From: a virus
Virus record (IMG/VR): IMGVR_UViG_3300029319_000259
Coordinates: 1-32,318 of that record
DNA: 32,318 nucleotides
Reading direction: 5' to 3' (one strand)
A program made the translations under genes and the position numbers. Under the pieces are notes generated by a model that ran no database searches, was not told the DNA's origin, and saw only the letters and a program-made list of their open reading frames with translations. This document shows positions 3,885-31,117 of this stretch, piece by piece. Within the stretch, counting starts at the first letter, position 1; every line of letters begins with the position of its first letter.

Positions 3885-4425
3885 TTTGATATCCACTTCC
3901 GTCAAATGTTATTGAGTTAGAGTCCCCGTCAACATCTACATAAGATGTTCCTAGGTCGTAATCAATGTCAAAATCAAATGTATTGCTATCTCCATTGATT
4001 ATCCAGTCTAAGTCAAGTGTCGAAGCTAAAGCATTAGTACCAACGTTTAGATTAAAGTCGTTACTAGAACCAGTTACGTCTACATTGTAGTTACCTGAAT
4101 CTGCACCGTAAGTATTAGTTGGGTCTACTTGTATATCAAATGTATTGCTATCTCCATCAAATTCAAAAAATCCTGTAATGCTATCTCCATAAATATCACC
4201 TAAGAATTTGTTTGAGCTACCTATTTGATTTATATCTAAAGTAAGATTTAAACCGTCAAGATCGAGCGCGGTCATAGTACCACTAACAGCGTTTAGTCCA
4301 CCAATGATGTTAGACGAACCTAACTGTTCTATATCTATGTTTGCGTTATTCCCGGACTGGTCGACATACACTTCATTATCAGCATACAAAAAACCAACTA
4401 ACAGTAAGGGTAAAAGTTTTTTCAT
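3727..4425 (-). CDS. Curlin-repeat-like secreted protein
   Basis: This 232-residue protein begins with a signal peptide (M-K-K-L-L-P-L-L-L-V-G-F-L-Y-A, cut after A15). The mature part is built of repeats in which a beta strand leads into D/Q-x-G-x-S-N, as at residues 22-27, 33-39, 66-72, 89-94, 116-122, 143-148, 165-170 and 187-191. This resembles the curlin repeat (Q-x-G-x-x-N) of CsgA/CsgB, but in most units Gln is replaced by Asp, Asn or Thr and the spacing is longer. It is rich in Asp, Asn, Gly and Ser, and ends with a distinctive tail holding two cysteines (residues 220 and 232). Its ATG overlaps the csgG stop (ATGA) with GGAG seven bases upstream. Position beside csgF and csgG makes it the likely exported substrate. 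Whether it forms amyloid, and whether it plays the CsgA or CsgB role, is not shown by sequence. Confidence 0.82.
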   Translation of the reverse strand: MKKLLPLLLVGFLYADNEVYVDQSGNNANIDIEQLGSSNIIGGLNAVSGTMTALDLDGLNLTLDINQIGSSNKFLGDIYGDSITGFFEFDGDSNTFDIQVDPTNTYGADSGNYNVDVTGSSNDFNLNVGTNALASTLDLDWIINGDSNTFDFDIDYDLGTSYVDVDGDSNSITFDGSGYQNGYFYLDQTGNSRTFNITQSSTLARDWLKIMSSGNNGTVCVVQNDGGTSTSC

Positions 4426-5234
4426 TTATAACTCCAATATCCAGCTTGTTCACCCTCCTTGATTATTTCTAATACGGCTGTTTCTATGGCAGAACGCAAA
4501 GCAAGTCCTCCAGACTCATTTCGCACCACACCACTTTCTATCTCCACTAATTCAGTACCAGCTTCGATAAAACGAAACACGTCGTCTGTTAATGATACAC
4601 TAAGAATGGTCTTAGATACTAATTTTTCAAGTAACACTTGACCCGAGTTTACAGACACAAGACGCAATTGTATTGTTATTGAGTCTGTCCTGTAAGCCTT
4701 AGATATACCAATCCCTAAATATCTAGCACCTGCGCCACCAGATGTTACATTAGATTCATATGAAACTACTGACCCTTCTAGTAATAAACCTGCAAATAAC
4801 AAAGTACCTATCTTTGTATTGTCTTTGTTTTCAGTCCTACCACTACGTATTATCTGGCGTTCTTTAGTTAAGTTATCTAGTCCACCTCTTTCTACTACAG
4901 TAAAGAAACCACCATTTTGTTTACATGCGTCTTTAAGAGCTTTAATAAGATAGGCACTAGGTTGTTGGGTTATAGCTGTAGAGAAGCTAGCATACATAGA
5001 ATTGCTAAGTCTTTGGCCTGTCTGGTCAGTAAATGCATTTCCGTACACAGCCACAGTTGGTTTTCTTTCAGGCGTACGGCACTCCTGCAAGTCTGTTATG
5101 ACTAGTTCTTCTATCTGTGCTGATTCGATTTTCCGTATCGGAGTTATGTTATTTTCTATGGGGTCAAATAATAGTGACGCGCAACTAGAAAGTAAAAGAA
5201 CCGATAGGTACCGTAATTTCTGTAGTATTGCCAT
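4422..5234 (-). CDS. csgG: CsgG, outer-membrane curli secretion pore
   Basis: This 270-residue lipoprotein matches CsgG along nearly its whole length (E. coli CsgG has 277). The lipobox is L-S-S-C with acylated C18. Conserved blocks include F-T-D-Q-T-G-Q (68-74), F-S-T-A-I (84-88), L-I-K-A-L-K-D-A (96-103), V-V-E-R-G-G-L-D-N-L (113-122), E-G-S-V-V-S-Y-E-S-N-V (153-163), S-G-G-A-G-A-R-Y (165-172), S-K-T-I-L-S (207-212) and R-F-I-E (221-224). CsgG forms a nonameric outer-membrane channel that exports unfolded curlin. F84 aligns with the constriction Phe56 of E. coli, while the Tyr51 and Asn55 positions appear to be Ser in both cases. The gene starts inside the end of csgF (50-base overlap) and is coupled to the curlin gene. 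The Shine-Dalgarno is weak. The family assignment is firm; what a phage exports through it is inference. Confidence 0.95.
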   Translation of the reverse strand: MAILQKLRYLSVLLLSSCASLLFDPIENNITPIRKIESAQIEELVITDLQECRTPERKPTVAVYGNAFTDQTGQRLSNSMYASFSTAITQQPSAYLIKALKDACKQNGGFFTVVERGGLDNLTKERQIIRSGRTENKDNTKIGTLLFAGLLLEGSVVSYESNVTSGGAGARYLGIGISKAYRTDSITIQLRLVSVNSGQVLLEKLVSKTILSVSLTDDVFRFIEAGTELVEIESGVVRNESGGLALRSAIETAVLEIIKEGEQAGYWSYK

Positions 5235-5679
5235 CTGGGTCTGTTATCTTTAGGGTTATCATTGTACCATCTTCACTTACGCTGTATTCAATAGTGTTGC
5301 CCATTAGTTCGATAATACCTTGTGTTTGAGGAGTATCTCCAAACAAAGCATCTACAAGTTGTCTTGATAGCTGTGCATATATTCTAGACTCTAAGTTACG
5401 TATAAACCTAGCAAGTGTAGTATTTTCTGCATCTCTTTTAAGTTGTTCTTTATAAGCTTTTAGTTCTGCTTTAATATTTTCTTTACGGTTAAACTCTTGG
5501 TTTTCAATTGTAAGATAATGTGAACTAGTGCCTACTCCACTAAAACTAGGGTTTTTAAAACCGTGTACTATCTGATCTGCCCACAAAGGATTAGTTAAAA
5601 GCAAAAGAAAAAAGAAAACACAGAGAAACCCTGCAATTCTATATATCCAAATATTGTCGTCAATCTTTTCTTTGGTCAT
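5185..5679 (-). CDS. csgF: CsgF-like curli assembly factor
   Basis: This 164-residue protein has a long hydrophobic signal region (about residues 14-34, cut near P-L-W-A) and then the CsgF hallmark F-K-N-P-S-F-S-G at 41-48, the segment that in E. coli CsgF plugs into the CsgG barrel. Further conserved features are F-I-R-N-L-E-S-R-I in the helical middle and a C-terminal beta domain with T-I-E-Y, I-T-L-K-I-T-D and T-T-E-I-T-V. CsgF narrows the CsgG pore and links secretion to fibre nucleation at the cell surface. The start is taken as ATG 5679, preceded by GGATAGAG; a TTG at 5697 would add six residues. It overlaps both the upstream membrane-protein gene (20 bases) and csgG (50 bases), so the block is translated as a unit. 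Confidence 0.9.
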   Translation of the reverse strand: MTKEKIDDNIWIYRIAGFLCVFFFLLLLTNPLWADQIVHGFKNPSFSGVGTSSHYLTIENQEFNRKENIKAELKAYKEQLKRDAENTTLARFIRNLESRIYAQLSRQLVDALFGDTPQTQGIIELMGNTIEYSVSEDGTMITLKITDPDGNTTEITVPIGSFTF

Positions 5680-6010
5680 CTCTATCCGCCTTAGCAATTT
5701 TGTTGCTATCTATAAGTTGAGGTACTCCTAGTATAGTCTTTATAAGCGTATCTTGTCTAATAATCTCATTATCCAGACTACGTATTCTATCTATTAAAGC
5801 CACTAAAATACTGTGTTGTGAATCAAGTTTAGTGCCTAGTCTTTCTTCTAACGCTGATATTTGTCCTTCTACTTTTTCATCTACAGTGTCTAATTTGGTT
5901 TCCATACCGTCAACAATACGCATTATTAATTTATATATAAACCAACCTAAACCTAGTGCAGCTGCTATAGGAAACCCAACTTCTTGTATTACGGTAACTG
6001 CTGCTTCCAT
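5660..6010 (-). CDS. Holin-like membrane/coiled-coil protein
   Basis: This is a 116-residue protein with one N-terminal membrane helix (about residues 10-32, rich in Ala, Gly, Leu and Ile), followed by basic residues and a coiled coil (about 35-95, heptads of Val, Leu and Ile between Glu, Asp and Lys). The C-terminal end is charged. The layout recalls small phage holins of the BhlA type or other lysis accessory proteins. The basic residues right after the helix suggest the coiled coil stays in the cytoplasm, which argues against an inner-membrane spanin. It starts inside the stop of the 3TM holin-like gene (TGATG) and its own end overlaps csgF, tying the lysis genes to the curli block. No specific family is certain. 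Confidence 0.6.
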   Translation of the reverse strand: MEAAVTVIQEVGFPIAAALGLGWFIYKLIMRIVDGMETKLDTVDEKVEGQISALEERLGTKLDSQHSILVALIDRIRSLDNEIIRQDTLIKTILGVPQLIDSNKIAKADRDDQRKD

Positions 6011-6480
6011 CAGTCACTCTTATTGGAGGCTCCGAAATAAAATGATATTACTGCAGAAGCTAGGCCACCAAGGTAACCTAATACTAAATTAATCAGAGCC
6101 TCACTGTTCTGTTCTGGTGGTTGGAGAGTTACGAGAAAGATATAACCAAGAAAACCACCAACCATGGCTATACCTATAATTCTAGCTGTCCAGTCTTTGC
6201 TAAACATACCACGAGCATGTTGTTTTTCTGCTGTTTCTAATTTATACAAATCAACATCAAGCTCTTTCATTTTAGCTTCAAACTCTTTTTCTGCTTTTTT
6301 AATTTCAATTAACTGTTCAGGTGTAGCACTTGCTAATGCTTGTTCTATGGACTTAGGATTGTTTTCTACTCCTAATACTTTTGATATGACATCTCCTGCC
6401 ATACCACCAAAGGGTCCACCTAATGCAGTTCCTAATGTTGGAGCGACTGCTCCTACTATATTACCCAGTAACTTCTTCAT
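6010..6480 (-). CDS. 3TM holin-like protein
   Basis: This is a 156-residue protein. It has a glycine-rich amphipathic N terminus (about residues 5-35), a charged helical middle (about 45-95) and two clear membrane helices near the C terminus (about 100-119 and 129-149, the latter V-L-G-Y-L-G-G-L-A-S-A-V-I-S-F-Y-F-G). This matches the 'holin of 3TMs' family found in phages and gene transfer agents, whose presumed job is to permeabilise the inner membrane so that the endolysin reaches the cell wall. The start is set at ATG 6480 with GGA just upstream. A TTG at 6489, which has AAGGAGG about 12 bases ahead, is an alternative. It overlaps the end of the thermonuclease gene by 20 bases. Confidence 0.75.
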   Translation of the reverse strand: MKKLLGNIVGAVAPTLGTALGGPFGGMAGDVISKVLGVENNPKSIEQALASATPEQLIEIKKAEKEFEAKMKELDVDLYKLETAEKQHARGMFSKDWTARIIGIAMVGGFLGYIFLVTLQPPEQNSEALINLVLGYLGGLASAVISFYFGASNKSD

Positions 6481-6883
6481 ATTTTCCAAGCTTTAATAGC
6501 TCCTCCTTGTTTGCTAAATGCTGTGCTTCTATGTCATCTTTGCTTTGACCTGTGTATGCAACAGCAAGATAATTATCAATAAGCGCTTGGTTTAGATCTA
6601 CGCCATCTGCGATAATGACGCCTAGAACTCTACCGAACTTCCCTTTCTTGTCTAGTTTTGTTTGTATTTTTAAATTATCAGCATGCAAGATAGCATCTGA
6701 TAGAAATTTACCAGCTAGTTTACCTCTAGCTTTTTCGTCTAAATCACGTGTTCGTGACTCTGGCGTGTCAATTCCGTATAACCTGACACGGGATGTATAA
6801 GAGATATCAAACCCTAAATCTATTATGGCATCGACAGTATCTCCGTCTACCACTCTGGTTACTTCGCATCTGTATTCGTACAT
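6461..6883 (-). CDS. Thermonuclease (SNase-fold nuclease)
   Basis: This is a 140-residue staphylococcal-nuclease homologue without a signal peptide. The opening V-V-D-G-D-T places the calcium-ligand aspartates at D13 and D15. The loop R-L-Y-G-I-D-T-P-E-S supplies R34, D39 and E42, and K-F-G-R-V-L-G supplies R85. These correspond to the catalytic Arg35, Asp40, Glu43 and Arg87 of the S. aureus enzyme, so it should be an active calcium-dependent nuclease. Marine podophages often carry such genes, and breakdown of host DNA is the usual suggestion. The start overlaps the stop of the small basic protein gene (TAATG). Confidence 0.9.
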   Translation of the reverse strand: MYEYRCEVTRVVDGDTVDAIIDLGFDISYTSRVRLYGIDTPESRTRDLDEKARGKLAGKFLSDAILHADNLKIQTKLDKKGKFGRVLGVIIADGVDLNQALIDNYLAVAYTGQSKDDIEAQHLANKEELLKLGKYEEVTG

Positions 6884-7450: not shown

Positions 7451-9367
7451 TTAACTTGCACTAAATTTAACAAACCTAACATCAGCTGACCCTATCTGCC
7501 TAAAGTTTGCATCTCCTTGCCCATATATATAACATTTTACTGTACCACTACCAGTATATCTAAATGCAATTGGTAAATTAGCAGTGTCAGCACTGCTTGT
7601 AAGCCTAGACTCAGTTATGCTTGTGTTTAAATGTTGTATGTCAGGAGTTCTATAAACTACACCAGAACTGCCATCTAATAATTCTGCCGTGTCACTGCCA
7701 CCTGATGTAACTGTAGTGTCGACCGTACCATCAGAAAATAACAAATGTATTGTTTTAACTTGACCATTACCTCCAACTAAACGCACATAACCTTGATAAA
7801 ACCCAGCTCCTGTCCCAACTGTAGTTATTTCTGCATATCTTTTAGAGTTATTGTTAAAGTTTCCAATACTGCTACCTGTAACAAGACCACCACTAGTAGG
7901 TAATACTAAGTCTGTAACATTTATTTTTGCTGCTGTAATAGTGTTAGCACCAATTCTGTCAGCAGATATTGTGCCTGCATTTATCTTGTCAGCACTCAAA
8001 TCATTTATTTTTGCATTAGTGATTTGTGCATCACCTATGAGCGCAGTTGTAATATTTGCCGTCGCAATCTTAGCCGTTGTGATTTGAGCGTCTCCAATCT
8101 TAGCAGTTGTAATTGCCGCGTCCGCTATCTTAGCACTTTGAATAGTTGCGTTAGCGATACGTGCATTTGTTATAGCTCCGTCTTGTATACGTGCGCTATC
8201 TATAAATACTGTACCCCCACTAACTATAAAAGGTGCTACATTAGCGTTAGTTCCGTTCCAAATTGCAAACTTATCTGCTTGAAATTGCACAAAAGATTGT
8301 GCTCCTGAGCCATCACTGGCGTTAGAACCTATGACCATACCAGCTACTGATTTACTATTGTTAGACTCTGTAGCTACTTGCAATACAAACATTGCATTAA
8401 GATCGCCTGTATGACTAGCTGTAGTAGTATTCAACGTATTAATTGAACTAGTGTTGCCATTAACAGTAGAGGTTAAACTAGTTACAGAAGACGCAGTAGA
8501 GTTTTGTGCGTTAGTCACTGTAACAATGTCCGATTGAGCAGTAGCCATAGCTGCAGTTAAAGTGCTACCTGTAAAACTAGTACTACCAAAAAGATTAACT
8601 AGTGTTGCATCACGCCCCGCCACCCAAGCATTATTAGAAGCATTTCGTGTATATATCTGACCATCATCGGTGTCATACCATATGTCATTTAGTTGTAAAG
8701 ATGACCCATCTGCTCTCGTGCTAGGTGTACCAGAAGATCTAATGACCGTGGCCGCAGCTGCTGTAGTAGTAATTAAATTATACCCGGGTAGGTCTGCTAA
8801 AGTTTCTGACAATTGCCCCATAACTTCAGCTATATTTTCTACTGTTGTAGCTTTTGTACCGTTTGTTCTATTAAATGGGCCCCTTACGTTACTGGTGCTT
8901 ACAAACCTAACCCAATAAAAATAAGTTTGATCGTAGCCTACAGGGTCAGTAATAATAAAAGAAGCAGTGGTTGTTATAAGAGTTGCAGTACCCACTTCAT
9001 CATCTCTAGACCTCCATACCTCTGTAAAAGCATGGTTACTATATTGAGCAGGGTTCCAATCGACTATTATTTCTGTAAAAGCACCAGAGGCTTCTAGGCC
9101 TGTAGGGGCAGGCGGAATAGTTAAATCGTTTTTTTGATCGTCGTTAGGTATGAAATCAATAAGCCCATTAGGGTCAAAGGGCCTTTCGCTTAAACGTTTT
9201 GCTAATCCACTTTCTACAAGTTCTCTAAGAGTTACGGCTCTATCTAAAGGGTCGCCACGTCTACCTAATCTAATTTCTTGAGCTTCCCTCATGGACTCAA
9301 GAGTATCTCTTAATTCTCTTTCTATTTTTGGTGGGATATTTTTTAAGGCAGGAACTTTAGTAGACAT
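7451..9367 (-). CDS. Lambda J-like tail tip / host-specificity protein
   Basis: This 638-residue protein is a partial relative of the C-terminal half of lambda J. Residues 1-75 are helical and charged. Residues about 82-175 form a fibronectin type III domain (I-P-P-A-P-T-G-L-E-A, W-N-P, Y-F-Y-W-V-R). Residues about 200-255 hold a small domain with D-I-W-Y-D-T-D-D-G-Q-I-Y. A Ser/Thr-rich helical stretch follows, then a DUF1983-like segment (V-Q-F-Q-A-D-K-F-A-I-W-N). After that come decapeptide repeats of the A-I-T-T-A-K-I-G-D-A type (about 390-470), and a beta-rich tip with a receptor-binding look. The protein should be at the distal end of the tail and contact the host surface. The start overlaps the nozzle stop (TAATG), with GAGG seven bases upstream. 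Finding it in a podovirus-like gene set is uncommon. Confidence 0.8.
   Translation of the reverse strand: MSTKVPALKNIPPKIERELRDTLESMREAQEIRLGRRGDPLDRAVTLRELVESGLAKRLSERPFDPNGLIDFIPNDDQKNDLTIPPAPTGLEASGAFTEIIVDWNPAQYSNHAFTEVWRSRDDEVGTATLITTTASFIITDPVGYDQTYFYWVRFVSTSNVRGPFNRTNGTKATTVENIAEVMGQLSETLADLPGYNLITTTAAAATVIRSSGTPSTRADGSSLQLNDIWYDTDDGQIYTRNASNNAWVAGRDATLVNLFGSTSFTGSTLTAAMATAQSDIVTVTNAQNSTASSVTSLTSTVNGNTSSINTLNTTTASHTGDLNAMFVLQVATESNNSKSVAGMVIGSNASDGSGAQSFVQFQADKFAIWNGTNANVAPFIVSGGTVFIDSARIQDGAITNARIANATIQSAKIADAAITTAKIGDAQITTAKIATANITTALIGDAQITNAKINDLSADKINAGTISADRIGANTITAAKINVTDLVLPTSGGLVTGSSIGNFNNNSKRYAEITTVGTGAGFYQGYVRLVGGNGQVKTIHLLFSDGTVDTTVTSGGSDTAELLDGSSGVVYRTPDIQHLNTSITESRLTSSADTANLPIAFRYTGSGTVKCYIYGQGDANFRQIGSADVRFVKFSAS
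7975..8195 (-). repeat. 30-base periodic repeat encoding decapeptides (A/Q-I-T-x-A-K-I-x-D-A)
   Basis: Inside the tip-protein gene there are six to seven imperfect 30-base units encoding decapeptides, seen as repeated ATCTTAGC...GTTGTAAT blocks in the plus strand. Such Ile-spaced repeats are typical of trimeric beta-helical stalks in phage fibres. Edges are approximate. Confidence 0.7.
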
Positions 9368-13789: not shown

Positions 13790-13790
13790 A

Positions 13791-20003: not shown

Positions 20004-23000
20004 CTATAAATTATTGTAAACAGGAGCTAAGTCTTTTACTTTTAACTGTCCTGTAAATAAATCATACCCTTTTTCTACGGTTGGTCCAAGTGGGCCCACC
20101 CACATAGGGTCTCCATATCTTTTATCTTCCATAAACAAAGGAAGCGCTAAAGTAAAAGGTCCAAGTACTCCAGATCTATCTAAAATCTCTGTGCTATATT
20201 CGCCCCAGTCCATTTCTTGAGACCTTCTATAATTTTTATCTTCTGGACTTATTCCCGGTAACAACCAAGCTAAACCAACTTTAAACCTTTCACGTAAATC
20301 AAAACCTAACATAGTTAAAGGTAATAAAGTTGCAGCGCCTAAAAACAAAGGCACAGCTGCGCCTTTTAATCCTGCTTCTGTATATCTAGCTTGCATTTCA
20401 TTTATAGAACCACCTACGATAGTTTTACCGTAAGCGTAAAAGAAAGACTTAAGTTGCCATACTAGAGCAAATCTAGGGTCAGAAGCCCAAATAGGTCTTT
20501 CTGCTGCGTTTGGTCTAACAATAGATTCATCTACAAACCTAGCTAATGCTAATTGTATTTTTTCATTACCTGCTTGTTTTACGTCTCCTCCTCCCCAAGC
20601 TATAACATCATCTGCTGTTACACCTAATTCTTTTAAATATCTTATAGCTCTTTTATCACCTTTTTTTGCTTTTTCAGCATTATCTAATAAGAAAGCTTTA
20701 CCCATGCCTGCTGCAAAGATTCTAGTAAACCTAGTAAATTGTTCTAGTCCTATGGCCCTAAAGAATTGATTAGTAAACTTTTTAGTTTTTTCGTTTGTGT
20801 ATTCTAATTCTCCTGCACCTACAAAAGTTTCCATCATTGCATCAATACCTACTACTCCTATATCTTTAGCTAATTTTGCTGCTTCATTTGGATCTTTTAT
20901 CATGTTAAAAATAGTTCTAGTTGCAGTACGCAAAGCCCCAAAGTCTTTAGACCTAAGTATAGGACCTGCTAAATCTGGGAAAGAAGCAAAAGTAGCAAAT
21001 GTTAAAAGAGTAGTTACATTAAAAGCTAAACCTATTTGATTAGCGCCTCTAAACAAACCACTAGATATTGGTGTTATTTTACCTAACATAGCCATTACAG
21101 CTTTTTCAGCTTGCGCTCTTTGTTTAGGGTTTTCTATTTGACTAAGCAACTCAGCAATTCTTTCTGGTCCCCCTCTTTTGTTTAGTTCTACCCTTTTTAC
21201 CGTGTTGTCAATATACTTTTGTAAAGCTCTATGTGGGTCTTCTAATAGCTCTGCATCTCTTAAACGTTTAGTAGGTACATTTTTATAAAGAGCTGCTCTA
21301 GATTTTATTAAACCTATATTATATTTAGCACCATCACTATCTATTTCTATTTCATTAGATATATCTGCAATTGTAGCCTCTACTGCTTCATTAGCTTCTT
21401 GTTCGGTTAAATCAGTATCTCTAATTGTACCGTCTGCGTTTTTATCTCCTTTTTTGTTAAATTCCATAAGTAAGTCTACTAATTCTTGTTTCTTTTCAGG
21501 GTTGCCTGCTACTTCTTCTATAAGTAAAGAACGTGGGAAGAAGTTAGAAAGTTTACTTATACCTATTTTTTCTAAACCTAATGAATCGTAATGTTCTGTT
21601 AACCACTCTCTAATTCTTGCAGCTTGTGGCCCTAGTTGCTCTGTAGGTATAGTATTATCTTCAGCTTGTAAAAGAATATCCATTTTTTCTTGCGTCATTT
21701 CACCAGTCTTACGCACCCCTAGGATGTCTTGTATTTCAGTCATTTTACCCCTAGCAATAGTAGTAGCTGCAGTAAGGAACCCTATAGCTTCTGTACTTTG
21801 AGGTTGTCCTCTAAACATTTGTGCAAGTTTTATACCTGCTGGGCCAAAGCCCCTAAGCAAATCATCCTTTGCAAATAAAACCTGTTTAAGAAATGCCCCT
21901 ACGCCAAGAGGTTCTCCTGAATCTATTAATGTGTCTATTGTTTGTTTTATTTTTCTTGGAGCATTAGGATCGTTAAGAGGTATTTCATCTCCTAGTTTTT
22001 CTAAGGTTTCTTGTATTTCTGCAGCTGCTAAATACTTTGTCATAAAATGACCAGGGTCAGTATTTATTCTTTTTAGTTCTACTACATAGTCAGCAAAAGC
22101 AGGATTAACTCCATATCTTCTGTTAGCAAAATTACTAAACTCTTTTACAAAAGCTTTTATTTTATTTGATAAACGTTTAAAGAAAGAATCTGTTTGATTT
22201 TGTGCTTTTTTAGTTTCATCAAGTAAATAAGAACCCACTTGATCAGACATCCATTCTTTAAAACCTTGTTCATCATTTGTATATTGAGCAGTGTCATTAG
22301 TCTTTCTTTCTTCGTTAAATGCATCTAATAAACCTTGTCTTAAAGCAGGCACATTTAAACTAAATTCTAATTCTTGGTTTACAAAAGAATGACCTATTTC
22401 ATGGGCTACAGTAAAAGCTCTAGCCCCTTGGGCGCCTTCACTTAAACCTTCTCTGGTTTGTACAAGAATAACGTCAAAATTTGCCCCTTTTAAATTCATT
22501 CCTCGTGTAGAACTTTCTGGACCCATTTTGGCAAGGGCTCTTTGTACTCTATTAGCTAAATCAACATCACCGTCTAAAACTTCGGCTGTAATGTTTTCTG
22601 TAGTGCTAAATATTCTGTAAGGTTTTTTTAAACCTAATTTAGTATTTGCAATACGTTGAAAGTCTTTAAGAAAAGTAGCATTTAAATGTTGTTCAACCAC
22701 GCTAGAAAAGAATACTCCAGGTTTGGGGCCACCTGTTTTAGTTGAATCTCCTTTTGCATAAGGGTTTTTAAATATTCTTCTATTAAACTCATCTTCTGCT
22801 CTTTGATCTGCAGTAGGTTGTTCAGACCCTAGTTCTTGGTCTTGTTCTTTTAAAGATTCTAGTTCATTTTCAAGTCTTGCAAGTTTTTCATCCATTTTAG
22901 CTAAAACAGATTCTTGGGTAACAGCTTCTCCAGTATCGCTAGTAAATGGTGTGATTGGATTTTTTTGTCTTTCTTCTATTTTAGCTTTTTGGTCTCTTAT

Positions 23001-25730
23001 TTGAGCTTCTAAAGATTCTTGTTTTTCTTTATAGTCTTGGCCTATAAGAGTGTCCCTATCTACAAAAGTTGGGTCTTGTTCTACTTGTTGCGCTCTACCT
23101 TTTTGTAAGTCGCCTAATGTAAACTTATCTTTACCTTTATTTTTTGTATAGATAATAGCGCCTGGGTCATTGTAAGTTTCATTAGTAATAGGTTGGTTAT
23201 CAAAAAATAATTCGTAGTTAGTATCTAAAGACGCTAAAATAAAACCAAACCCCTCTATTGCACTTCCAAATTCATCAGGAGAAAAAACTTCTCCATAACG
23301 TCTTCCTAAAATCCTACCTTGATTTACTAAAGTGGGCATATCTATAGGCACTATTTTTTCACTTTCTGGACTTTTTATACCAAACCTACTACGTATAAAA
23401 CGATTCTTTTCATCTTTAAGACTTCCAGCATTTCTTTTAGCTAATTGCACTGCTTTTGTTATATCTGCAGGGCTAGGTTGAGTTACCCCCGGAGTATAAC
23501 CCATGTTGTATTTAATTAAATTAAACCCACCCCTGTCGGTGTTTTCATTAATTTTATAAAAGGCGCCAGTAGTATCATTTGTATTTTCAGCTATAAAAGC
23601 TTTTAACAAACTCTCTGAATATCTTTTTTTATTTATATTTTCATCAAACTCGCTTTGAAACTCTGCTGGCACTAAAGTTCTAGCTTCTGCCACTAAACCT
23701 TGGTCGTATGTAATATCAGTAGAAGGTATTTGCCATACCTGTTTACCTTTTTGTCTAGGAGTTATAGGGTCAAGAAAAGAACCCCTACCTTCTTCTACAG
23801 CAGTAGGCTCGCTAACATCAAATATGTTTCCTAGTTCTTCTTCTGCTGTTTCAAAAGACTCTTGTTGTTCAGTTGGATCTGTTTCATCTAATCCTTCATC
23901 CTGCATACGTTCATCAATGACTTCTTCTAATGGGCCACTTTCGTAAGTATAACCGGGGGTATTATTAATATATGCTATCGCAGCTTGCTCCGCGGCAGGA
24001 ATACCTTCAGCTGTAGTAGATTGTTGCCAAACAGTGTTGCCGTCTTTGTCTTTAACAGTAGTTGCAAAAGTATCGCCTGGATCTCTAGAACGAGAATACC
24101 CAAGATTATCAGCTAACCATTGGTCTAAAATAGTTTTATCAAGCGTATTAGTAGTCATTACATTTGCAAAAGACTCTGCTTTTTGTTCATTAGTAGTGTA
24201 TAAAGTTCCTACTCCTGCTATATCTACAACTTTCATATTCGGATATTTAGCTTGCATTTTAGCTTCAATAGATTTCATAGCTTCTTTACTTTGGTCTACA
24301 ACCCAAACTAAATCTCTTTCTATAGTTGGGTTACCCATATCAGCAAACTGTGCTTCTAAGTTTGCTGCACTTTCTGGTAAAACTTTTCCTGTTACTTTTC
24401 TTGATTTTAATTCATAAGCTTTTTGTGCAGCTATAGCATGTCCTTGTTTCATCATGTCGTAACTTTTACCAGCTACAGAAGATGGGGCACCTATAATACT
24501 ACCCATCCCCATGCCGCCAAAGAACCCAGCAAATAAAGCATTAGCCCTATCTAAATTAGCCATATCTTTCGTGTAGGCTTCGTCGATCCTAAGTTTTTGT
24601 CGCACGGAAAGTTCTTCTTGCCCTGTTTCTGCTATACCTTCTGCTACTGCAGTTGTTCCTGCAACTTGCGCAAATCTACTTCTTCTGCTTTGTATGTCTG
24701 CGGCGTAACCTTTTTTAGTTACATCAACTAATTCACCATCTTTGGTATATAATGCTCCATCTTTTGTTGTAGGAGGTTTACCACCTTTAGGTTTTTTATT
24801 AATAACTTTTCCTACAGATTTAACTACTGCTACTTCACTACCTAAACCTAAAGCAGCAAAACCAAGCCCTTGTAAACCAGAAGCAAAAACTTCGTCTCTA
24901 CCAGTCATCCCTTGTTCTGCATAATCTCCAAAAGCAATACCTTGTCCCATGACTTGTTCTTGTGACCCAGCACCCGCTAGTGCTCCTATCTTTGCTCCTC
25001 TTTTTTTAGACTCATTACGAATATGTGCATAAAGATTCTTAATCATTATTTCTTCGTCTGGTGTTAAAGGTTTAAGTTTAATGGGATTTTTCTTTGCTTT
25101 GTTTGCTTCTATGGCTATGTATTTATTAACAACTTTTTGTACAGCTGCACGAGTTCCTGCTTCTTGTGCTATGCTGGTGGGCAAAACCCCTTTTGAAGCT
25201 TGTTTTGATAAAAATTTTATACCCAAAGACCTACCGGCAGCGGTTGTAGCCCCTACGCCTGCTGCTGCAGCTACACCACCAGTTCCTATTGCAGCACCAG
25301 TCATAGCTAGGCCAATACTTGCAACAGCAGAAGGTACAAATTGTCCTGTAGCTGAAATAGCTTGATTTATAAAACCTCCAAAAGTAGGTTCATCTAAGAA
25401 CTCTTCAAAAGTTTCTGCGTTTGCTAGGTAAAAAGCACCTGCTGATTGAATTCTTTGAGCTTTATTTAAATGGTCTTGCATATCCTCTTCATTGCCCATA
25501 AAGGACGCAATCGAGGCATTGAAGTTTTCTATTTGCGCTTCAGTGTTAACAAGACCAGTTCTAACAGAAGCTTTAAATAATTTAATAGGGTCATCAACAA
25601 TAGCAGCTTCAGGAACAGTAGGAGTAGCTAGAGTACCAGTTACCGTTCCAGAGGGTATACGGCTTTGGGGGGGTTGAGCTAAGCTACCTCTAACTCTATT
25701 TGTTTGTGATGTTCTTTCCGATTTGGCCAT
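20004..25730 (-). CDS. Giant ejection/internal virion protein with metallopeptidase motif
   Basis: At 1908 residues this is the largest gene. Positions 110-170 are rich in Ala and Gly with hydrophobic stretches (I-G-L-A-M-T-G-A-A-I-G), as is a segment near 390-420 (F-A-G-F-F-G-G-M-G-M-G) and one near the C terminus (V-P-L-F-L-G-A-A-T-L-L-P-L). A coiled coil lies at about 895-985. H1110-E-I-G-H1114 followed by S-F-V-N-Q-E, with E-W-M-S-D-Q about 45 residues later, is a gluzincin-type zinc-peptidase pattern. The C-terminal half is helical, as in podophage proteins ejected into the host to span the envelope. It sits after three other ejection-type genes. It may digest an envelope or host protein during entry, or take part in processing. 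There is no strong Shine-Dalgarno, and it overlaps the upstream gene by 35 bases. Confidence 0.75.
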   Translation of the reverse strand: MAKSERTSQTNRVRGSLAQPPQSRIPSGTVTGTLATPTVPEAAIVDDPIKLFKASVRTGLVNTEAQIENFNASIASFMGNEEDMQDHLNKAQRIQSAGAFYLANAETFEEFLDEPTFGGFINQAISATGQFVPSAVASIGLAMTGAAIGTGGVAAAAGVGATTAAGRSLGIKFLSKQASKGVLPTSIAQEAGTRAAVQKVVNKYIAIEANKAKKNPIKLKPLTPDEEIMIKNLYAHIRNESKKRGAKIGALAGAGSQEQVMGQGIAFGDYAEQGMTGRDEVFASGLQGLGFAALGLGSEVAVVKSVGKVINKKPKGGKPPTTKDGALYTKDGELVDVTKKGYAADIQSRRSRFAQVAGTTAVAEGIAETGQEELSVRQKLRIDEAYTKDMANLDRANALFAGFFGGMGMGSIIGAPSSVAGKSYDMMKQGHAIAAQKAYELKSRKVTGKVLPESAANLEAQFADMGNPTIERDLVWVVDQSKEAMKSIEAKMQAKYPNMKVVDIAGVGTLYTTNEQKAESFANVMTTNTLDKTILDQWLADNLGYSRSRDPGDTFATTVKDKDGNTVWQQSTTAEGIPAAEQAAIAYINNTPGYTYESGPLEEVIDERMQDEGLDETDPTEQQESFETAEEELGNIFDVSEPTAVEEGRGSFLDPITPRQKGKQVWQIPSTDITYDQGLVAEARTLVPAEFQSEFDENINKKRYSESLLKAFIAENTNDTTGAFYKINENTDRGGFNLIKYNMGYTPGVTQPSPADITKAVQLAKRNAGSLKDEKNRFIRSRFGIKSPESEKIVPIDMPTLVNQGRILGRRYGEVFSPDEFGSAIEGFGFILASLDTNYELFFDNQPITNETYNDPGAIIYTKNKGKDKFTLGDLQKGRAQQVEQDPTFVDRDTLIGQDYKEKQESLEAQIRDQKAKIEERQKNPITPFTSDTGEAVTQESVLAKMDEKLARLENELESLKEQDQELGSEQPTADQRAEDEFNRRIFKNPYAKGDSTKTGGPKPGVFFSSVVEQHLNATFLKDFQRIANTKLGLKKPYRIFSTTENITAEVLDGDVDLANRVQRALAKMGPESSTRGMNLKGANFDVILVQTREGLSEGAQGARAFTVAHEIGHSFVNQELEFSLNVPALRQGLLDAFNEERKTNDTAQYTNDEQGFKEWMSDQVGSYLLDETKKAQNQTDSFFKRLSNKIKAFVKEFSNFANRRYGVNPAFADYVVELKRINTDPGHFMTKYLAAAEIQETLEKLGDEIPLNDPNAPRKIKQTIDTLIDSGEPLGVGAFLKQVLFAKDDLLRGFGPAGIKLAQMFRGQPQSTEAIGFLTAATTIARGKMTEIQDILGVRKTGEMTQEKMDILLQAEDNTIPTEQLGPQAARIREWLTEHYDSLGLEKIGISKLSNFFPRSLLIEEVAGNPEKKQELVDLLMEFNKKGDKNADGTIRDTDLTEQEANEAVEATIADISNEIEIDSDGAKYNIGLIKSRAALYKNVPTKRLRDAELLEDPHRALQKYIDNTVKRVELNKRGGPERIAELLSQIENPKQRAQAEKAVMAMLGKITPISSGLFRGANQIGLAFNVTTLLTFATFASFPDLAGPILRSKDFGALRTATRTIFNMIKDPNEAAKLAKDIGVVGIDAMMETFVGAGELEYTNEKTKKFTNQFFRAIGLEQFTRFTRIFAAGMGKAFLLDNAEKAKKGDKRAIRYLKELGVTADDVIAWGGGDVKQAGNEKIQLALARFVDESIVRPNAAERPIWASDPRFALVWQLKSFFYAYGKTIVGGSINEMQARYTEAGLKGAAVPLFLGAATLLPLTMLGFDLRERFKVGLAWLLPGISPEDKNYRRSQEMDWGEYSTEILDRSGVLGPFTLALPLFMEDKRYGDPMWVGPLGPTVEKGYDLFTGQLKVKDLAPVYNNL

Positions 25731-28173
25731 TTTTATCTTCGTATATAAAAGCTTCTAATAAGTTACGAGCGTATGAACCTTCTTGACCAAAGCCCTTTGT
25801 TAATCCTGCTAAATCAATACTACCATCCATTTGATTTCCTTGTGCATCTACATAGTATATTTGATCTATTTGACCATTAGGAAAAGTAGTATATCTAACT
25901 CTATCAAGTATCTGTCCTAAATCAGGAGACTCTCCCCTACGGAAAAGAACATCTCTAAACCAATCTCTTAAGTCTTCTGACCCATTTGCTTCCACAAGAT
26001 TTTGAAATAATATACCTGCAATAGCTTTAGAGGCCTCGTACCCACCCTCGGTTCCAGCACTAATAGTAACTATGCCATCTTTGGTACGTGCAAATTTAGG
26101 AGAGTTTGGATTAGCTTTGGTATCATTTAAAGCCCCTAAAATTTTAGGTGTAACTTGCCTATCAAAAATAGTGTTTGCATCTTGAAGTTCACCTTTATCA
26201 TCCATTGGATAAAGTAAATCTACAATTTTAGTATAGTTTTCTCTAATCTCGTCATCAATCTCACGAAATGCTTTTTGCATGTCCATTTTAAATTTCTGAG
26301 CATTCATAGCAAAAGTATCTGCTGCTCTTGATTTATCACCATAAGCGTCAAAAATAGCCATGTTTCTTTGTAAAGTAACTCCATAATCAGGAACATTACC
26401 CATCCTATCTACACTAGTATTGCCTGCCATAACATTAGCCATAGTAAAAGCATCTATGTTAAAAGCTGATGAAGAACCAAATGGGATCCTTTCAACATCA
26501 TCAACAGAATTTACATCAAACTTAGTAATAATATCTTTTACTTTTTTTACTAAGTCTCCGTCTTTACCCATTTTTTCTAAGCTAGCTTGGTTAGTTGTAA
26601 ACCAATTATTAAACTCTTCGTCACTAGCATCTGCTGCTGGTAAAGGCGTAAAGGTATGTGTTTCCACATCAGATGTAACTTTTACTTCTGCTTGTGTTTG
26701 TGGTATTCCTTTATTAAGTCCTTCTTTTTGTTTAAGTAAATTGTCTTTTTCTGTTTGAAGTTCTTGTAATGCGTTTTGGCTGTATCCAGCTCTTAAAGTA
26801 TCACTATTTAATATATTGTCTATTTCATTGATTCTATTATCTATAGGGTCTGTTTGTTTTTGTATATCTCTTCGTCTGTTTTCACTTGTAGCACCTATTG
26901 CTTTTTCTGCAACTTCTAACCCTCCTTGGATTTTAGCTTGTGCTCTTTGTTTTCTTTTCGCAAGAGTTTCATCGTACTCATTTATAGTTTGATATTTTTT
27001 AACACCAGAAACACCACCAGAACCCACAAAAACTCTAAGTTCTCCATCTTTTACTGAATATTTTTTACCAGGAGACATAGGACCAGAAGCTTCACCAATA
27101 CTGTTAGGGTTTTCAAGAAATTGTTGTTTTATGCTTTCAAATTCTGCTATTTCTTGGTTTACTTTATTAAGCCTAGCACTGTTAAGTGTTACTTCTCTTT
27201 TTGCTGAGTCTAATTGACCTTGTTTCACAACGACTTTACCTTGCGTTCTATCGTTAAGGGGTCTTTTACTAACTCCTGATTGAGCAGCGTCAAATAAAGT
27301 ATTTATCTCATTTGTTCCTAAAGAAACTTCTCCTGCTTTTGCAGCATCAAGAATATCTATAGCAGCGGAGTTAGAACCATCTGCAAGTCTTAAATTACTT
27401 CTATCTGTAGTTGGTGTTGCATCTGTAGGTGGTGTTGTAGTTGTTGGAGTTCCTTGCACTTTATCTAAACCTAACTCTGTATTATCTACAGCACTTTTAT
27501 CAACAGAAGGACTTATTAAACCTTGTATTTCTAAAATAGCTTGTTGTTTCTGTTCCATAGATAATTCAGGGTCATTATCAATTTGGTCTATTTGTCCTGC
27601 ATATTCATCCATTAAATTACCAGCAGAAACAGCTTCACCTCTATTTTTTTTCACTCTTGAATCTATTACCCTGTAATTAGTAGTCATAAAGTCTTTAAAA
27701 TCACCCTTACTTAGTTTTACTACATAATCATTTTCATCTTCACTTGAGAACCAAGTTTTTGGTGCAAATTTTCTATCTGGCCTTTGCATAATTAAACTAA
27801 CAGTGCCATCTTCATTTTCTATAAAGTCAGCTACTTTACCTTGTGCAGTTTCTCCACTTACTGTTTTAAATTGACCTATAGATTTTGTTGCATTTGCAAC
27901 CATAATTGCTTGGGGTTTATTTTTTTGAAATAAATTTTGAAACCCTAAATCTACTTTTGTACCATCGTCTGCAGTAGTTTGGTAAAAATCGCCTCTAGCA
28001 GTTATTATTTGTTCGTCTCCACTCCTAGACTGTAAATAATTAACGAGTTCTGTTTCGTCTCTTAAATTAGTCATACGTTGATCTTCTCTCAACGCTAACC
28101 TTTGTTGTTGTTCGCTATAAGTAGGTCCAAGCGCCTCGCTTACCCTACCTAATAATCCTACTCTTTCTGCCAT
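25696..28173 (-). CDS. Large internal virion (ejection) protein
   Basis: This is an 825-residue helical, charged protein with no signal or membrane segment. It opens with A-E-R-V-G-L-L-G-R-V-S-E-A-L and has long coiled-coil-like stretches around residues 315-370 and 400-490 (R-I-N-E-I-D-N-I-L and L-Q-E-L-Q-T-E-K-D-N-L-L-K-Q-K). A Pro/Thr low-complexity linker lies near 240-258 (P-T-T-T-T-P-P-T-D-A-T-P-T-T). Its place between small gp14-like proteins and the giant protein suggests a core/ejection protein comparable in position to T7 gp15, although I see no clear homology. ATG 28173 is preferred over a TTG at 28185 because it lies directly after the stop of the previous gene. Confidence 0.65.
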   Translation of the reverse strand: MAERVGLLGRVSEALGPTYSEQQQRLALREDQRMTNLRDETELVNYLQSRSGDEQIITARGDFYQTTADDGTKVDLGFQNLFQKNKPQAIMVANATKSIGQFKTVSGETAQGKVADFIENEDGTVSLIMQRPDRKFAPKTWFSSEDENDYVVKLSKGDFKDFMTTNYRVIDSRVKKNRGEAVSAGNLMDEYAGQIDQIDNDPELSMEQKQQAILEIQGLISPSVDKSAVDNTELGLDKVQGTPTTTTPPTDATPTTDRSNLRLADGSNSAAIDILDAAKAGEVSLGTNEINTLFDAAQSGVSKRPLNDRTQGKVVVKQGQLDSAKREVTLNSARLNKVNQEIAEFESIKQQFLENPNSIGEASGPMSPGKKYSVKDGELRVFVGSGGVSGVKKYQTINEYDETLAKRKQRAQAKIQGGLEVAEKAIGATSENRRRDIQKQTDPIDNRINEIDNILNSDTLRAGYSQNALQELQTEKDNLLKQKEGLNKGIPQTQAEVKVTSDVETHTFTPLPAADASDEEFNNWFTTNQASLEKMGKDGDLVKKVKDIITKFDVNSVDDVERIPFGSSSAFNIDAFTMANVMAGNTSVDRMGNVPDYGVTLQRNMAIFDAYGDKSRAADTFAMNAQKFKMDMQKAFREIDDEIRENYTKIVDLLYPMDDKGELQDANTIFDRQVTPKILGALNDTKANPNSPKFARTKDGIVTISAGTEGGYEASKAIAGILFQNLVEANGSEDLRDWFRDVLFRRGESPDLGQILDRVRYTTFPNGQIDQIYYVDAQGNQMDGSIDLAGLTKGFGQEGSYARNLLEAFIYEDKNGQIGKNITNK

Positions 28174-28174
28174 G

Positions 28175-28729
28175 TTATATACCAAATATGGCGCCTATAA
28201 CAGCGCCTCCTAAACCAATCATATTAGAACTATGTTGAGCTTTTGCATTTTTGTATGCTGCTGCTCTTTGCGCTGCCATAGCTGAAGCATCACCTAAACC
28301 ACTTAAAGAAGTTTGATTTATACCTTGTCCAATACCTATCAACTCATTTAAAGTTGCATCGTTTATTTGTCGTTGTTGAATCCTAGCGTTATTTAAAGAA
28401 TTAGTAAGTCCTAATTGACCACCTAACTGCAAGTTTCTTTGTTGTTGTTGTCTTTGGGCGTTTGATAAACCAGCTCCACCGTACCGTTCTATGTTCCTTT
28501 GTTGTACTTGTTGCGCTATTTGATTTTGTCTAATTTGATCTTCTCTTGCTTTATCTATTAAAGAAGTATCTTCTGTAGCTTTTAACAACCTTTCTTCAAA
28601 AGCTCTAAAATTATCTACATAGTCCATGTAGTCTTGTCGAGTTATTTGAGCAAAAGTATCTTCCGGATTTGCAACCGAAGGTAACGTGCTTACGTAGTCT
28701 GTGCCTCTATGTCCTCTAGTATGTGGCAT
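28175..28729 (-). CDS. Small internal virion protein, gp14-like
   Basis: This 184-residue protein has a Gln/Arg/Asn-rich helical middle (Q-Q-V-Q-Q-R-N-I-E-R, R-Q-Q-Q-Q-R-N) and a hydrophobic Gly/Ala/Ile-rich C-terminal segment (M-I-G-L-G-G-A-V-I-G-A-I-F-G-I). Glutamine-rich helices plus a short membrane-active end are usual for podophage core proteins such as T7 gp14, which inserts into the outer membrane upon ejection. The assignment rests on composition and gene order. Its start overlaps the upstream stop by one base. Confidence 0.6.
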   Translation of the reverse strand: MPHTRGHRGTDYVSTLPSVANPEDTFAQITRQDYMDYVDNFRAFEERLLKATEDTSLIDKAREDQIRQNQIAQQVQQRNIERYGGAGLSNAQRQQQQRNLQLGGQLGLTNSLNNARIQQRQINDATLNELIGIGQGINQTSLSGLGDASAMAAQRAAAYKNAKAQHSSNMIGLGGAVIGAIFGI

Positions 28730-29337: not shown

Positions 29338-29767
29338 TTACTTTCTTCCTATATATTCGTGTATCTAATTCCCAACCTATTTGTTTAGTGTACGATTCCA
29401 TTTCTGGAACTCGTGATCTCGCTTCGAGATACTTACAACCTGCTTCTTTTGCTAGGTTATTAAACCACTCTTCGTGAGCTAACCAATTATGCCCACCTTT
29501 ATTATAAGTATACGCTATCCATAGCAGCAATGTCTTGTCTTTTGTAAACTGATCTGTTTCTACAGTCAGTATTAAAAAACCTACAGGAGAGGTGTAAAGA
29601 AAAGCTCTTTCATTTACACATTCACTGTAAACATCTTCAGGGATATAAGTAAGATGAGGATTTTCTTTTAAAACTTCGAGTACCCCCATTTTTATAACAT
29701 TCCAACATTTTCTTATGTCAGTATAAACAGGTTCCTCAATAGTCGATTTCCTTCCCGTACTTTCCAT
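29327..29767 (-). CDS. gp13-like internal protein with GNAT-type fold
   Basis: This is a 146-residue protein with a layout suggestive of a GNAT acetyltransferase fold: a strand with F-L-I-L-T-V-E-T, then L-L-L-W-I-A-Y-T-Y, a helix with W-L-A-H-E-E-W-F-N-N-L-A-K-E-A-G, and a final strand near Y-T-K-Q-I-G-W-E-L. T7 gp13, an assembly-related virion protein, is also described as GNAT-like, and the position here (between tail adaptor genes and core proteins) agrees. The usual acetyl-CoA-binding loop (R/Q-x-x-G-x-G/A) is not visible, so catalysis is doubtful. The start at ATG 29767 has AAGGAG five bases upstream, better than ATG 29788. Confidence 0.6.
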   Translation of the reverse strand: MESTGRKSTIEEPVYTDIRKCWNVIKMGVLEVLKENPHLTYIPEDVYSECVNERAFLYTSPVGFLILTVETDQFTKDKTLLLWIAYTYNKGGHNWLAHEEWFNNLAKEAGCKYLEARSRVPEMESYTKQIGWELDTRIYRKKVNGK

Positions 29768-30410
29768 ACCGTCTCCTTGGCATTCCAATCCCTTTGTACT
29801 TAACAGTTCGTTTTACCCCAAGGTCTCCGCCTCGGGCCCTTAATTCTGCTTGTTTGGTTTCAATATTAAATTGAAATGAGTACTCTTGCGAGGCTCCTAC
29901 ATCTGTCCACTCTCTATTTGGCATACGTAAAAGTCTGTACAAAGCTCCATATATTATGGCTTCTCTATACTGATTTGATACCGTAGTATCTATGTTGTTA
30001 CTTGTCCTTGTAGGTTTTAAAGCAACACTAGCAATAACTTGTTTTGCACCACTAGGAACAGGAACTATCCAAAATAAACTAGGAGATTTTTGTAAATAAA
30101 CGTGTGGGTTACCTGTCTTGTCCCTCCAATCTGGGTAATTTAATTCTAAACTACGTGGACTTATAGGATCCATATCTTGCCCATCATAGGTCATATATAA
30201 AACTTGATGTACTTCAGTCGCAACAGGTATATCAAAATCGTACTCATAAACTCCTGATACTGTAGTAAAAGGGTCCATGTCTAAAATATAAGCTTTTGAT
30301 TTTTCACAAAATTCTATAGCAGAATAACGTAAATGTTGTTCTACTAAAGAATCTGGACACATAGGAACATAAGGTAATACTTCTTTTACTAACGAAGAAT
30401 AAGACGCCAT
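29736..30410 (-). CDS. Tail/head-tail connector protein
   Basis: This is a 224-residue protein with an N-terminal helical pair (L-P-Y-V-P-M-C-P-D-S-L-V-E-Q-H-L-R-Y-S-A-I-E-F-C-E-K-S), a central beta domain (Y-E-Y-D-F-D-I-P, V-Y-L-Q-K-S-P-S-L-F-W-I-V-P-V) and a later helix (Y-R-E-A-I-I-Y-G-A-L-Y-R-L-L). The helix-beta-helix plan is that of podophage adaptor/gatekeeper proteins, and it follows the adaptor-like gene by two bases. The C terminus is basic and Tyr-rich. It has a strong ribosome-binding site (GGGAGG). A second adaptor or tail-tube-like component is the best guess. Confidence 0.65.
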   Translation of the reverse strand: MASYSSLVKEVLPYVPMCPDSLVEQHLRYSAIEFCEKSKAYILDMDPFTTVSGVYEYDFDIPVATEVHQVLYMTYDGQDMDPISPRSLELNYPDWRDKTGNPHVYLQKSPSLFWIVPVPSGAKQVIASVALKPTRTSNNIDTTVSNQYREAIIYGALYRLLRMPNREWTDVGASQEYSFQFNIETKQAELRARGGDLGVKRTVKYKGIGMPRRRYGKYGKEIDY

Positions 30411-30412
30411 GT

Positions 30413-31117
30413 TTAACTACCTCCCATAACTGCTGCATTCATGGTACTTGTTGGGTCTGTGTTAGGGTCTAAAAGAGTTTGAGCTTGTGCTCCTTGTCCG
30501 ACACTAGCGGTAAACAATTGATAATGTGTACCTGCCCTTTGTGCATTTCCAGCATACTCTGCATCTTTTAAGTATGCTTTATATAAAACAAAATCTATGA
30601 TTGCATTCCCATAAATATCATCTATATCTATATTAGAACTTGCACTACTTAAATCATCAGGATTTTTAGAATACACTATTTCTACGTACGCATTACCAGC
30701 CACTCCTGGATACACGTAAAACTTTCTAGGGTCATCTTCATCAAAAACGTAATGTTTAACTTCTGTGCCGTGAGTAGCATGACCGGTTACAGTAGGGTCA
30801 TGCCAATCAGGTTCTTGTGTGTTTAAAATATCAGAACTAACAATTCGAATTGCTCTTTTGCCAGTAGCACTCCCTGTACCACTCATGTTTCTAGTAACCT
30901 TTATTAAACGTAACCCATTAGTAGGTAAAGTCTGTAAAGTACCCGTAACTAATTGAACGTTAGTTGTAACTGCGGAAGCATCAGGTTTAAAATTTACAAT
31001 TTCTCTTTGTGCATCATTAATATAACGAAGCAGCTCTGCTTCAGTCCATCTGACACTAGAAGTATCTTGTAAAGTATCTTTAATTCTACTTAGTAAATTA
31101 GTACCTGTAAGCGCCAT
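30413..31117 (-). CDS. Tail adaptor protein (gp11/DUF6682-like)
   Basis: This is a 234-residue protein with the pattern of podophage head-to-tail adaptors: an N-terminal helix with L-L-S-R-I-K-D-T-L-Q-D, W-T-E-A-E-L-L-R-Y-I-N-D-A-Q-R-E-I-V at about 24-41, a beta domain with F-Y-V-Y-P-G-V and Y-V-E-I-V-Y-S-K-N-P, and a C-terminal helical pair (I-D-F-V-L-Y-K-A-Y-L-K-D-A-E-Y-A). It would join the portal to the nozzle. AGGATG is seven bases upstream of the ATG. Confidence 0.75.
   Translation of the reverse strand: MALTGTNLLSRIKDTLQDTSSVRWTEAELLRYINDAQREIVNFKPDASAVTTNVQLVTGTLQTLPTNGLRLIKVTRNMSGTGSATGKRAIRIVSSDILNTQEPDWHDPTVTGHATHGTEVKHYVFDEDDPRKFYVYPGVAGNAYVEIVYSKNPDDLSSASSNIDIDDIYGNAIIDFVLYKAYLKDAEYAGNAQRAGTHYQLFTASVGQGAQAQTLLDPNTDPTSTMNAAVMGGS

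Follow-up and report, generated by a model that had tools for sequence, protein, structure and literature searches.

The stretch of DNA analysed here, referred to as the window, is the entire 32,318-bp virus record IMGVR_UViG_3300029319_000259. On its minus strand lies an ORF of 638 aa, opening with ATG, that encodes a lambda J-like protein (Table 1). Relatives of this protein are encoded in 136 stretches of IMG/VR, the best 80 of which were kept, and hence the ORF is not a chance reading frame. The J-like protein is real.

Table 1. Positions of the J-like gene, its parts and the neighbouring genes in the window
Feature	Position	Strand	Basis
Tip partner gene, DUF7936 family, 120 aa	7086..7448	(-)	Pfam; co-inherited with tip class
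J-like central fibre / presumed tail needle	7451..9367	(-)	ORF, Pfam, PHROGs, fold and profile matches
Exchangeable C-terminal tip, residues 477-638, presumed receptor-binding	7454..7939	(-)	identity drop, model
Decapeptide-repeat stalk, residues about 390-476	7940..8200	(-)	sequence and structure-profile matches
Phage_Tail_Tip / DUF1983, residues 310-419	8111..8440	(-)	Pfam
Predicted long helix, residues 271-297, low confidence, possible coiled coil	8477..8557	(-)	model
FN3 domain, residues 82-177	8837..9124	(-)	predicted model, Foldseek, VIA
N-terminal dock motif, residues 15-62	9182..9325	(-)	common to other post-nozzle proteins
Nozzle protein, 663 aa	9367..11358	(-)	phrog_511, PDB 8jov
1908-aa late protein, presumed ejection protein	20004..25730	(-)	role inferred
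829-aa late protein, presumed ejection protein	25696..28185	(-)	role inferred
SU10-type adaptor 2	29736..30410	(-)	Pfam, PHROGs
SU10-type adaptor 1	30413..31117	(-)	Pfam, PHROGs

An earlier note on this DNA had likened an FN3 domain, a DUF1983-like segment and a decapeptide stalk to the distal half of J, and this comparison holds by Pfam, a predicted model, VIA and structure matches. Pfam assigns Phage_Tail_Tip (PF09327, which we take to be the former DUF1983) with an E value of 7.3e-25. We modelled a single chain with AlphaFold2 from 64 sequences. The model is weak overall (pLDDT 69, pTM 0.35); it has an FN3 fold (block pLDDT 82-90), a beta-rich DUF1983 region and a beta-rich tip at residues 492-635. 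The FN3 region returned at least 50 VIA matches, mostly FN3 domains, with Z of 11.7-13.6 and rmsd of 1.5-2.4 over 84-96 residues; these rows fill the VIA list, which is thus uninformative on the remaining parts. The ten-residue repeats of the stalk are visible in the sequence and match solved pentapeptide-type helices. The top PDB match of the model in Foldseek is lambda gpJ bound to LamB (8xcj_F, E 6.6e-13), with low TM-scores of 0.14 and 0.20. The second match is from podophage DEV, in its tail gating complex (9ze4, chain N; E 2.3e-7).

Coupling to the nozzle gene and gene order

The J-like ORF comes directly after a nozzle gene, the product of which matches phrog_511 (E 9e-146, PHROGs) and PDB 8jov (E 1.3e-65). 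The latter is presumably the nozzle of Ralstonia phage GP4, going by the neighbouring entry 8JOU, which is attributed to that phage (PMC13243795). Base 9367 belongs to both the nozzle stop and the J-like start (TAATG), and the placement and coupling proposed in the earlier note recur among relatives. Two scans gave 136 loci (80 + 56, several of them the same contigs) with 72 distinct nozzle/J junctions, the J start in each locus being taken as the start codon nearest the aligned first residue; 70 of the 72 show the one-base overlap, and the two exceptions, L079 and L129, have offsets of 2 and 4. The J-like frame also directly follows the nozzle in all five annotated phages checked (phi296, K249, phiARM81mr, CF418P1 and phiA008). 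For K249, the annotated J-like start lies 102 bp past the nozzle; the frame itself opens with a start codon within the nozzle's last codons. The gene on the nozzle's other side encodes a lysozyme (Pfam).

The description of the neighbours as podovirus-type, with nozzle, adaptor and ejection proteins, stands as well. Two SU10-type adaptors encoded upstream match PF24175 (E 2.7e-37 and 5.6e-11, Pfam), and the two large late proteins would act in ejection. In the 57,682-bp relative G001, the homologue of the 1908-aa protein matches phrog_30152, a virion structural protein, and that of the 829-aa protein has no PHROG match.

Three consecutive large fibre genes occupy 12272-18157(-) and match relatives only in parts; Pfam finds Peptidase_S74 in the two that were scanned, and the third ends alike by eye. 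The product of 18172-18600(-) weakly resembles GP4 fibre I gp80 (PF23140, E 0.0065, below cut-off) and is possibly a nozzle-collar fibre. The capsid gene at 31539-32306(-) is truncated where the record ends; its product has 48% identity to those of Aeromonas phage phiA008 and Pseudomonas phage KPP25. Unlike this capsid, the nozzle and an adaptor resemble those of Bcep22-like, Vibrio and Stx phages, and hence the genome is mosaic.

At 952-5697(-) lies a curli-like cassette encoding CsgF (PF10614, E 2.4e-15), CsgG (PF03783, E 1.2e-49), a curlin-repeat-like protein (PF07012, E 0.0067, below cut-off), a FecR protein and a CHASE2-cyclase (Pfam). The order of these genes recurs in many relatives. 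In L073, L071, L072 and L075, the cyclase gene and the homologue of 6010-6489 lie upstream of the nozzle rather than downstream of J, together with the whole curli cassette in L073 and with FecR in L075; the cassette has therefore moved. Phage CsgGF has been reported without csgA and csgB (PMC9004378), whereas the window cassette has a gene for a curlin-like subunit.

Relatives in other phages and the post-nozzle slot

A J-like protein among podovirus-type genes is less unusual than first thought in the earlier note. A J-like gene right after the nozzle is also found in Stx podophages and in Vibrio, Aeromonas and Achromobacter phages, and J-like fibres are present in the Schitoviridae phage DEV and, as described in PMC12309495, in Littlefixvirus. 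Over residues 4-194, the J-like protein has 32-37% identity to Stx and Vibrio phage tail fibre proteins. The spike of Traversvirus (Stx podophages; phrog_496) is encoded directly after a homologous nozzle, is about 32% identical over residues 12-194 and carries the N-terminal motif described below (rank 11, E 0.068, narrow profile). It differs in having 422 aa and is described as lacking a C-terminal Ig-like domain, its gene being followed by those for Ig-like and hand-like proteins (PMC12309495). The same source calls this tail spike of a short-tailed phage similar to gpJ, and treats Littlefixvirus likewise.

A profile built from 64 family sequences was run against 375 frames from the first 40 kb of Kuravirus SU10, and gp18 was the sole match at E values up to 10 (E 4.4e-14). 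The alignment covers the coiled coil, DUF1983 and the start of the stalk. The profile also matches 7z4b_EA (E 2.2e-11), taken as gp18 from its equal length, product name and alignment. Like the J-like gene, gp18 is encoded right after the nozzle gene, and its product is described as a tail needle that plugs the hexameric nozzle (PMC9509320). It differs in having 322 aa, no FN3 in the aligned part and a C-terminal beta-prism (PMC9509320). No sequence likeness was detected between the SU10 nozzle gp17 and the window nozzle.

The same profile matches the short tail fibre gp56 of DEV (9ze4_N) across FN3 and DUF1983 (E 1.1e-17), and DEV, too, is a podovirus in which these two domains are encoded in an overlapping operon. 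The genes for gp56, gp55 and gp54 are reported to form an essential operon in which start and stop codons overlap, and are posited as a module that may spread between phages (PMC12892993). Virions without gp56 leak DNA, gp56 is needed for tail closure, and gp54 is held to be an LptD-binding protein on genetic evidence (PMC12892993). Unlike the J-like protein, gp56 has 429 aa and lies lateral to a separate plug, on a tail with a dodecameric tube instead of a nozzle; its fibre partners are gp55 and gp54.

Lambda gpJ (8xcj, 8xci) has in common with the J-like protein FN3, a DUF1983-type central fibre and a distal tip. Its N-terminal hub domains close a long tube; in the J-like protein, they are replaced by a short N-terminal segment. 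The baseplate hub domains of gpJ are listed in PMC11101478.

This N-terminal segment, the dock (about residues 1-84), contains the motif L..G.RGD....AVT..EL, which recurs in different post-nozzle proteins. This looks new, and no title or abstract opening among the papers listed, subscription papers and bioRxiv apart, mentions such a motif. The comparison set comprised 14 phages from a nozzle search in which no J was recognised; their post-nozzle gene, where annotated, encodes 40-303 aa. A wider dock profile, made from J-like residues 15-62 of the window, its IMG/VR relatives and the five annotated phages, was scanned against the 2993 frames of this set. The post-nozzle gene is annotated in 12 of the 14 phages, and it ranks first in nine (of 116-279 frames each). 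In PH1 it ranks second, in KF-1 fourth and in DC1 seventh. An unannotated post-nozzle frame of ct1fd225 ranks seventh among all 2993. For controls, we used three loci with no clear relative of this nozzle (1246 frames; best tblastn E 0.11, in KPP25), and the best E value of the wider profile was 0.28.

A narrow profile, from the window and its IMG/VR relatives alone, was scanned against 4560 frames from 19 phage loci. Post-nozzle frames take all of the first 12 places, with E values of 2.5e-8 to 0.092 that are individually modest and mostly weak, such that the ranks carry the weight, among phages that are not mutually independent; the first frame from elsewhere has an E value of 0.87. These 12 frames come from 4 of the 5 J-type loci and 8 of the 14 others. 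At the remaining 7 of the 19 loci (phiA008, DC1, PBC5, PH1, Parlo, Atu_ph08 and KF-1) the narrow profile misses the motif, and in SU10 the motif was not found in gp18, which ranks about 50 of 375 frames. It was the profile over all frames that brought out the link to the small post-nozzle proteins; pairwise BLAST of the dock against them gave nothing useful, and the profile against single sequences gave hints only.

The small proteins occupy the same slot in Lessievirus (Bcep22-like), Parlovirus, Lastavirus, Skulduggeryvirus and rhizobial phages, with the N-terminal motif in most. Unlike the J-like protein, they are short, and BLAST found no J-like body in any of the six compared. Of six scanned against PHROGs, four belong to phrog_17319, that of Skulduggery falls in tail fibre families, and that of TM27B has no PHROG; for the three proteins searched, no solved structure was found by sequence. 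Two unannotated frames were also seen in the slot. That of the podovirus ct1fd225 (L162, 9103-9576) carries the motif and has a coiled-coil-like remainder, and that of PBC5 carries a motif visible by eye only. Across 67 loci, the first 180 J-like residues vary with the nozzle C-terminus (rho 0.89), a correlation partly expected from physical linkage.

The C-terminal tip and its partner gene

Sequence identity to the window protein, taken in blocks of 20 residues, is 55-84% up to residue 400 and 24-60% beyond. In L016, identity is 0.98 over residues 1-400 and 0.09 in the tip; in L033, the corresponding values are 0.56 and 0.82. The tip is thus swapped independently of the rest of the protein, and the small gene that follows, which encodes DUF7936 in the window, is swapped along with it, a pattern that looks new. 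No title or abstract opening among the papers listed, again with subscription papers and bioRxiv apart, mentions co-inheritance of tip and DUF7936, and no paper was found that names DUF7936.

The window partner scores 29.4 bits against the DUF7936 model (cut-off 27) and has no Phage_tail_APC domain. Window-like tips are followed by close DUF7936 relatives and other tips by other partner types. Eight of the other partners were scanned: three are DUF7936 (two just under the cut-off), two are Phage_tail_APC and three have no confident family. Both full-length partners scanned from the largest other tip class carry Phage_tail_APC (E 6e-20 and 1.6e-20), and in three loci there is a 58-aa partner without the APC domain.

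Tip and partner distances are correlated over 78 distinct loci (rho 0.65), also when the first 180 residues are controlled for (partial 0.62), and no permutation out of 2000 gave a value as high. Gene-by-gene comparison was made in the 67 of these loci that have all genes present. The tip-partner correlation is 0.67 (partial 0.65), compared to 0.14 (0.02) for the tip and the gene after the partner, and 0.19 (-0.01) for the tip and the nozzle C-terminus. Similar partners accompany 194 of 206 pairs of similar tips but only 65 of 1453 pairs of unlike tips. For the gene after the partner the counts are 102 and 368, respectively, and for the nozzle end 191 and 1327. The correspondence of tip and partner classes is not strictly one-to-one (four thresholds gave an adjusted Rand of 0.58-0.76): DUF7936 of two types accompanies tips of the window's class, five small tip classes have their partner class in common with another tip class, and one class of five has a deviant.

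Because APC-type proteins exchange with DUF7936 in the same slot, DUF7936 is most likely a tip-specific folding helper or cap. Fibre-chaperone pairs common to unrelated phages are known (PMC10579305). Rather unlikely, in our estimate, is that the partner is instead a receptor-binding or adaptor subunit at the needle tip, like DEV gp55/gp54 or T5 pb5, an arrangement that would be compatible with a needle role for the J-like protein. The operon position is the same, the small Ig-like protein encoded there in Traversvirus is proposed to sit at the spike tip (PMC12309495), gp54 of DEV is a proposed receptor-binding protein (PMC12892993), and in siphoviruses the locus adjoining J is said to encode the receptor-binding protein itself in many cases (PMC11990801). 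However, the largest other tip class has proteins with a tail assembly chaperone domain in this slot (2 of 2 full-length ones scanned), and variability is already provided by the tip. The model of DUF7936, with three strands and two helices, also speaks against a subunit of this kind, having no Foldseek match under an E value of 0.001 and a best VIA Z of 3.8.

The J-like protein as a putative tail needle

We propose that the J-like protein is probably the central tail needle, or central fibre, of a short-tailed phage, docked at the nozzle end and bearing a tip that is exchanged with the downstream gene. With precedents in Traversvirus, Littlefixvirus, DEV gp56 and SU10 gp18, a J-like fibre on a podovirus belongs to a kind already known, and there are good grounds for reading it as a needle. 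The earlier note's suggestion of a needle or plug at the nozzle end gains support from the homology to SU10 gp18 and DEV gp56 and from the N-terminal motif that post-nozzle proteins have in common. J-like fibres on podoviruses being already known, it is the dock motif and the tip-partner cassette that look like new additions. Points against a needle are the weak overall model with its low TM-scores to gpJ, the motif not being found in SU10 gp18, the lack of sequence likeness between the SU10 and window nozzles, the lateral place of gp56 in DEV, and the 7 of 19 loci missed.

From sequence, gene order and co-variation, the following mechanism can be put forward. The dock would sit inside the nozzle's distal end or on it, the nozzle being a hexamer by analogy with other nozzles, and may help to seal it. 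FN3, the helix, DUF1983 and the decapeptide stalk, most likely as a trimer, would carry the tip to the terminal receptor. Receptor contact might then pull or loosen the dock, and the opened nozzle would let out the ejection proteins and the DNA. Between phages, the tip would recombine together with the gene just downstream, most likely its folding helper or cap.

A J-like fibre may also guard the exit from the side, and DEV is the main warning here. The J-like protein could be a lateral receptor-binding fibre, standing beside a separate plug and stabilising it until receptor contact through partner proteins releases the plug, but we regard this as improbable. The closest FN3 and DUF1983 homologue that has been placed structurally, 9ze4_N, is indeed lateral: gp56, at first interpreted as the plug, was afterwards located next to a distinct plug protein, gp74 (PMC12892993). 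The DNA leakage from virions without gp56 and the start/stop overlaps of the DEV operon fit such a fibre as well. However, DEV has a dodecameric tube, and its plug is encoded immediately behind that tube (PMC12892993). In the window, the position directly after the nozzle is taken by the J-like gene itself, with an N-terminal motif like that of the small post-nozzle proteins of other phages, and the nozzle's other neighbour is a lysozyme gene.

The tape measure or tail tube that the earlier note had named as pointing to a long tail was sought in G001. This relative encodes capsid, adaptors, ejection-type proteins, nozzle and J-like protein, along with terminase, portal, small terminase and replication genes. 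No tape measure or tail tube was found among the G001 proteins scanned against PHROGs (ORFs of at least 200 aa; the record is not necessarily complete). The scan took in all 11 ORFs of at least 200 aa in the first 19 kb, 6 of 10 in the last 19.6 kb, where the remaining four match window proteins, and three fibre ORFs in the late-gene stretch, where the other long plus-strand ORFs match window proteins; not included is one minus-strand ORF that lies within a fibre gene. Some G001 fibre proteins match families named long tail fibre or baseplate wedge. In the J-like protein, no tail-hub domain was found, Pfam at E values up to 1 giving Phage_Tail_Tip only, and there is too little room for N-terminal hub domains because FN3 starts at residue 82.

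That the J-like protein is an ordinary siphovirus tip, with the podovirus reading of its neighbours wrong, is barely credible and was rejected: its FN3 and DUF1983 parts do resemble siphovirus J proteins, and one record with an FN3 match (1M3-16) has a tape measure gene, but the nozzle, the SU10-type adaptors, the G001 result and the missing hub all argue against it, as do the Stx-phage relatives with the nozzle/J-like pair, which are described as short-tailed (PMC12309495).

A broader reading of the needle and its slot is one that we offer tentatively, with somewhat more doubt than belief. The post-nozzle slot may be a general adaptor slot, in which one short nozzle-dock motif is combined with unrelated cargo: some podophages would have small needle-like proteins there and others lambda-J-type fibres. 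The J of siphoviruses and the needles of podoviruses would therefore be interchangeable, with the foot as their only difference, and DUF7936 would represent a new class of tip-specific fibre chaperone or cap, one that must be swapped with the tip.

How short-tailed phages retain their DNA and time the opening of the tail is settled for few models only. With a sequence motif that marks the nozzle-docked protein, the plug or needle could be identified from sequence in many podophages that lack annotation. The tip-partner pairing tells which small gene travels with the tip, a rule for reading the evolution of phage host range.
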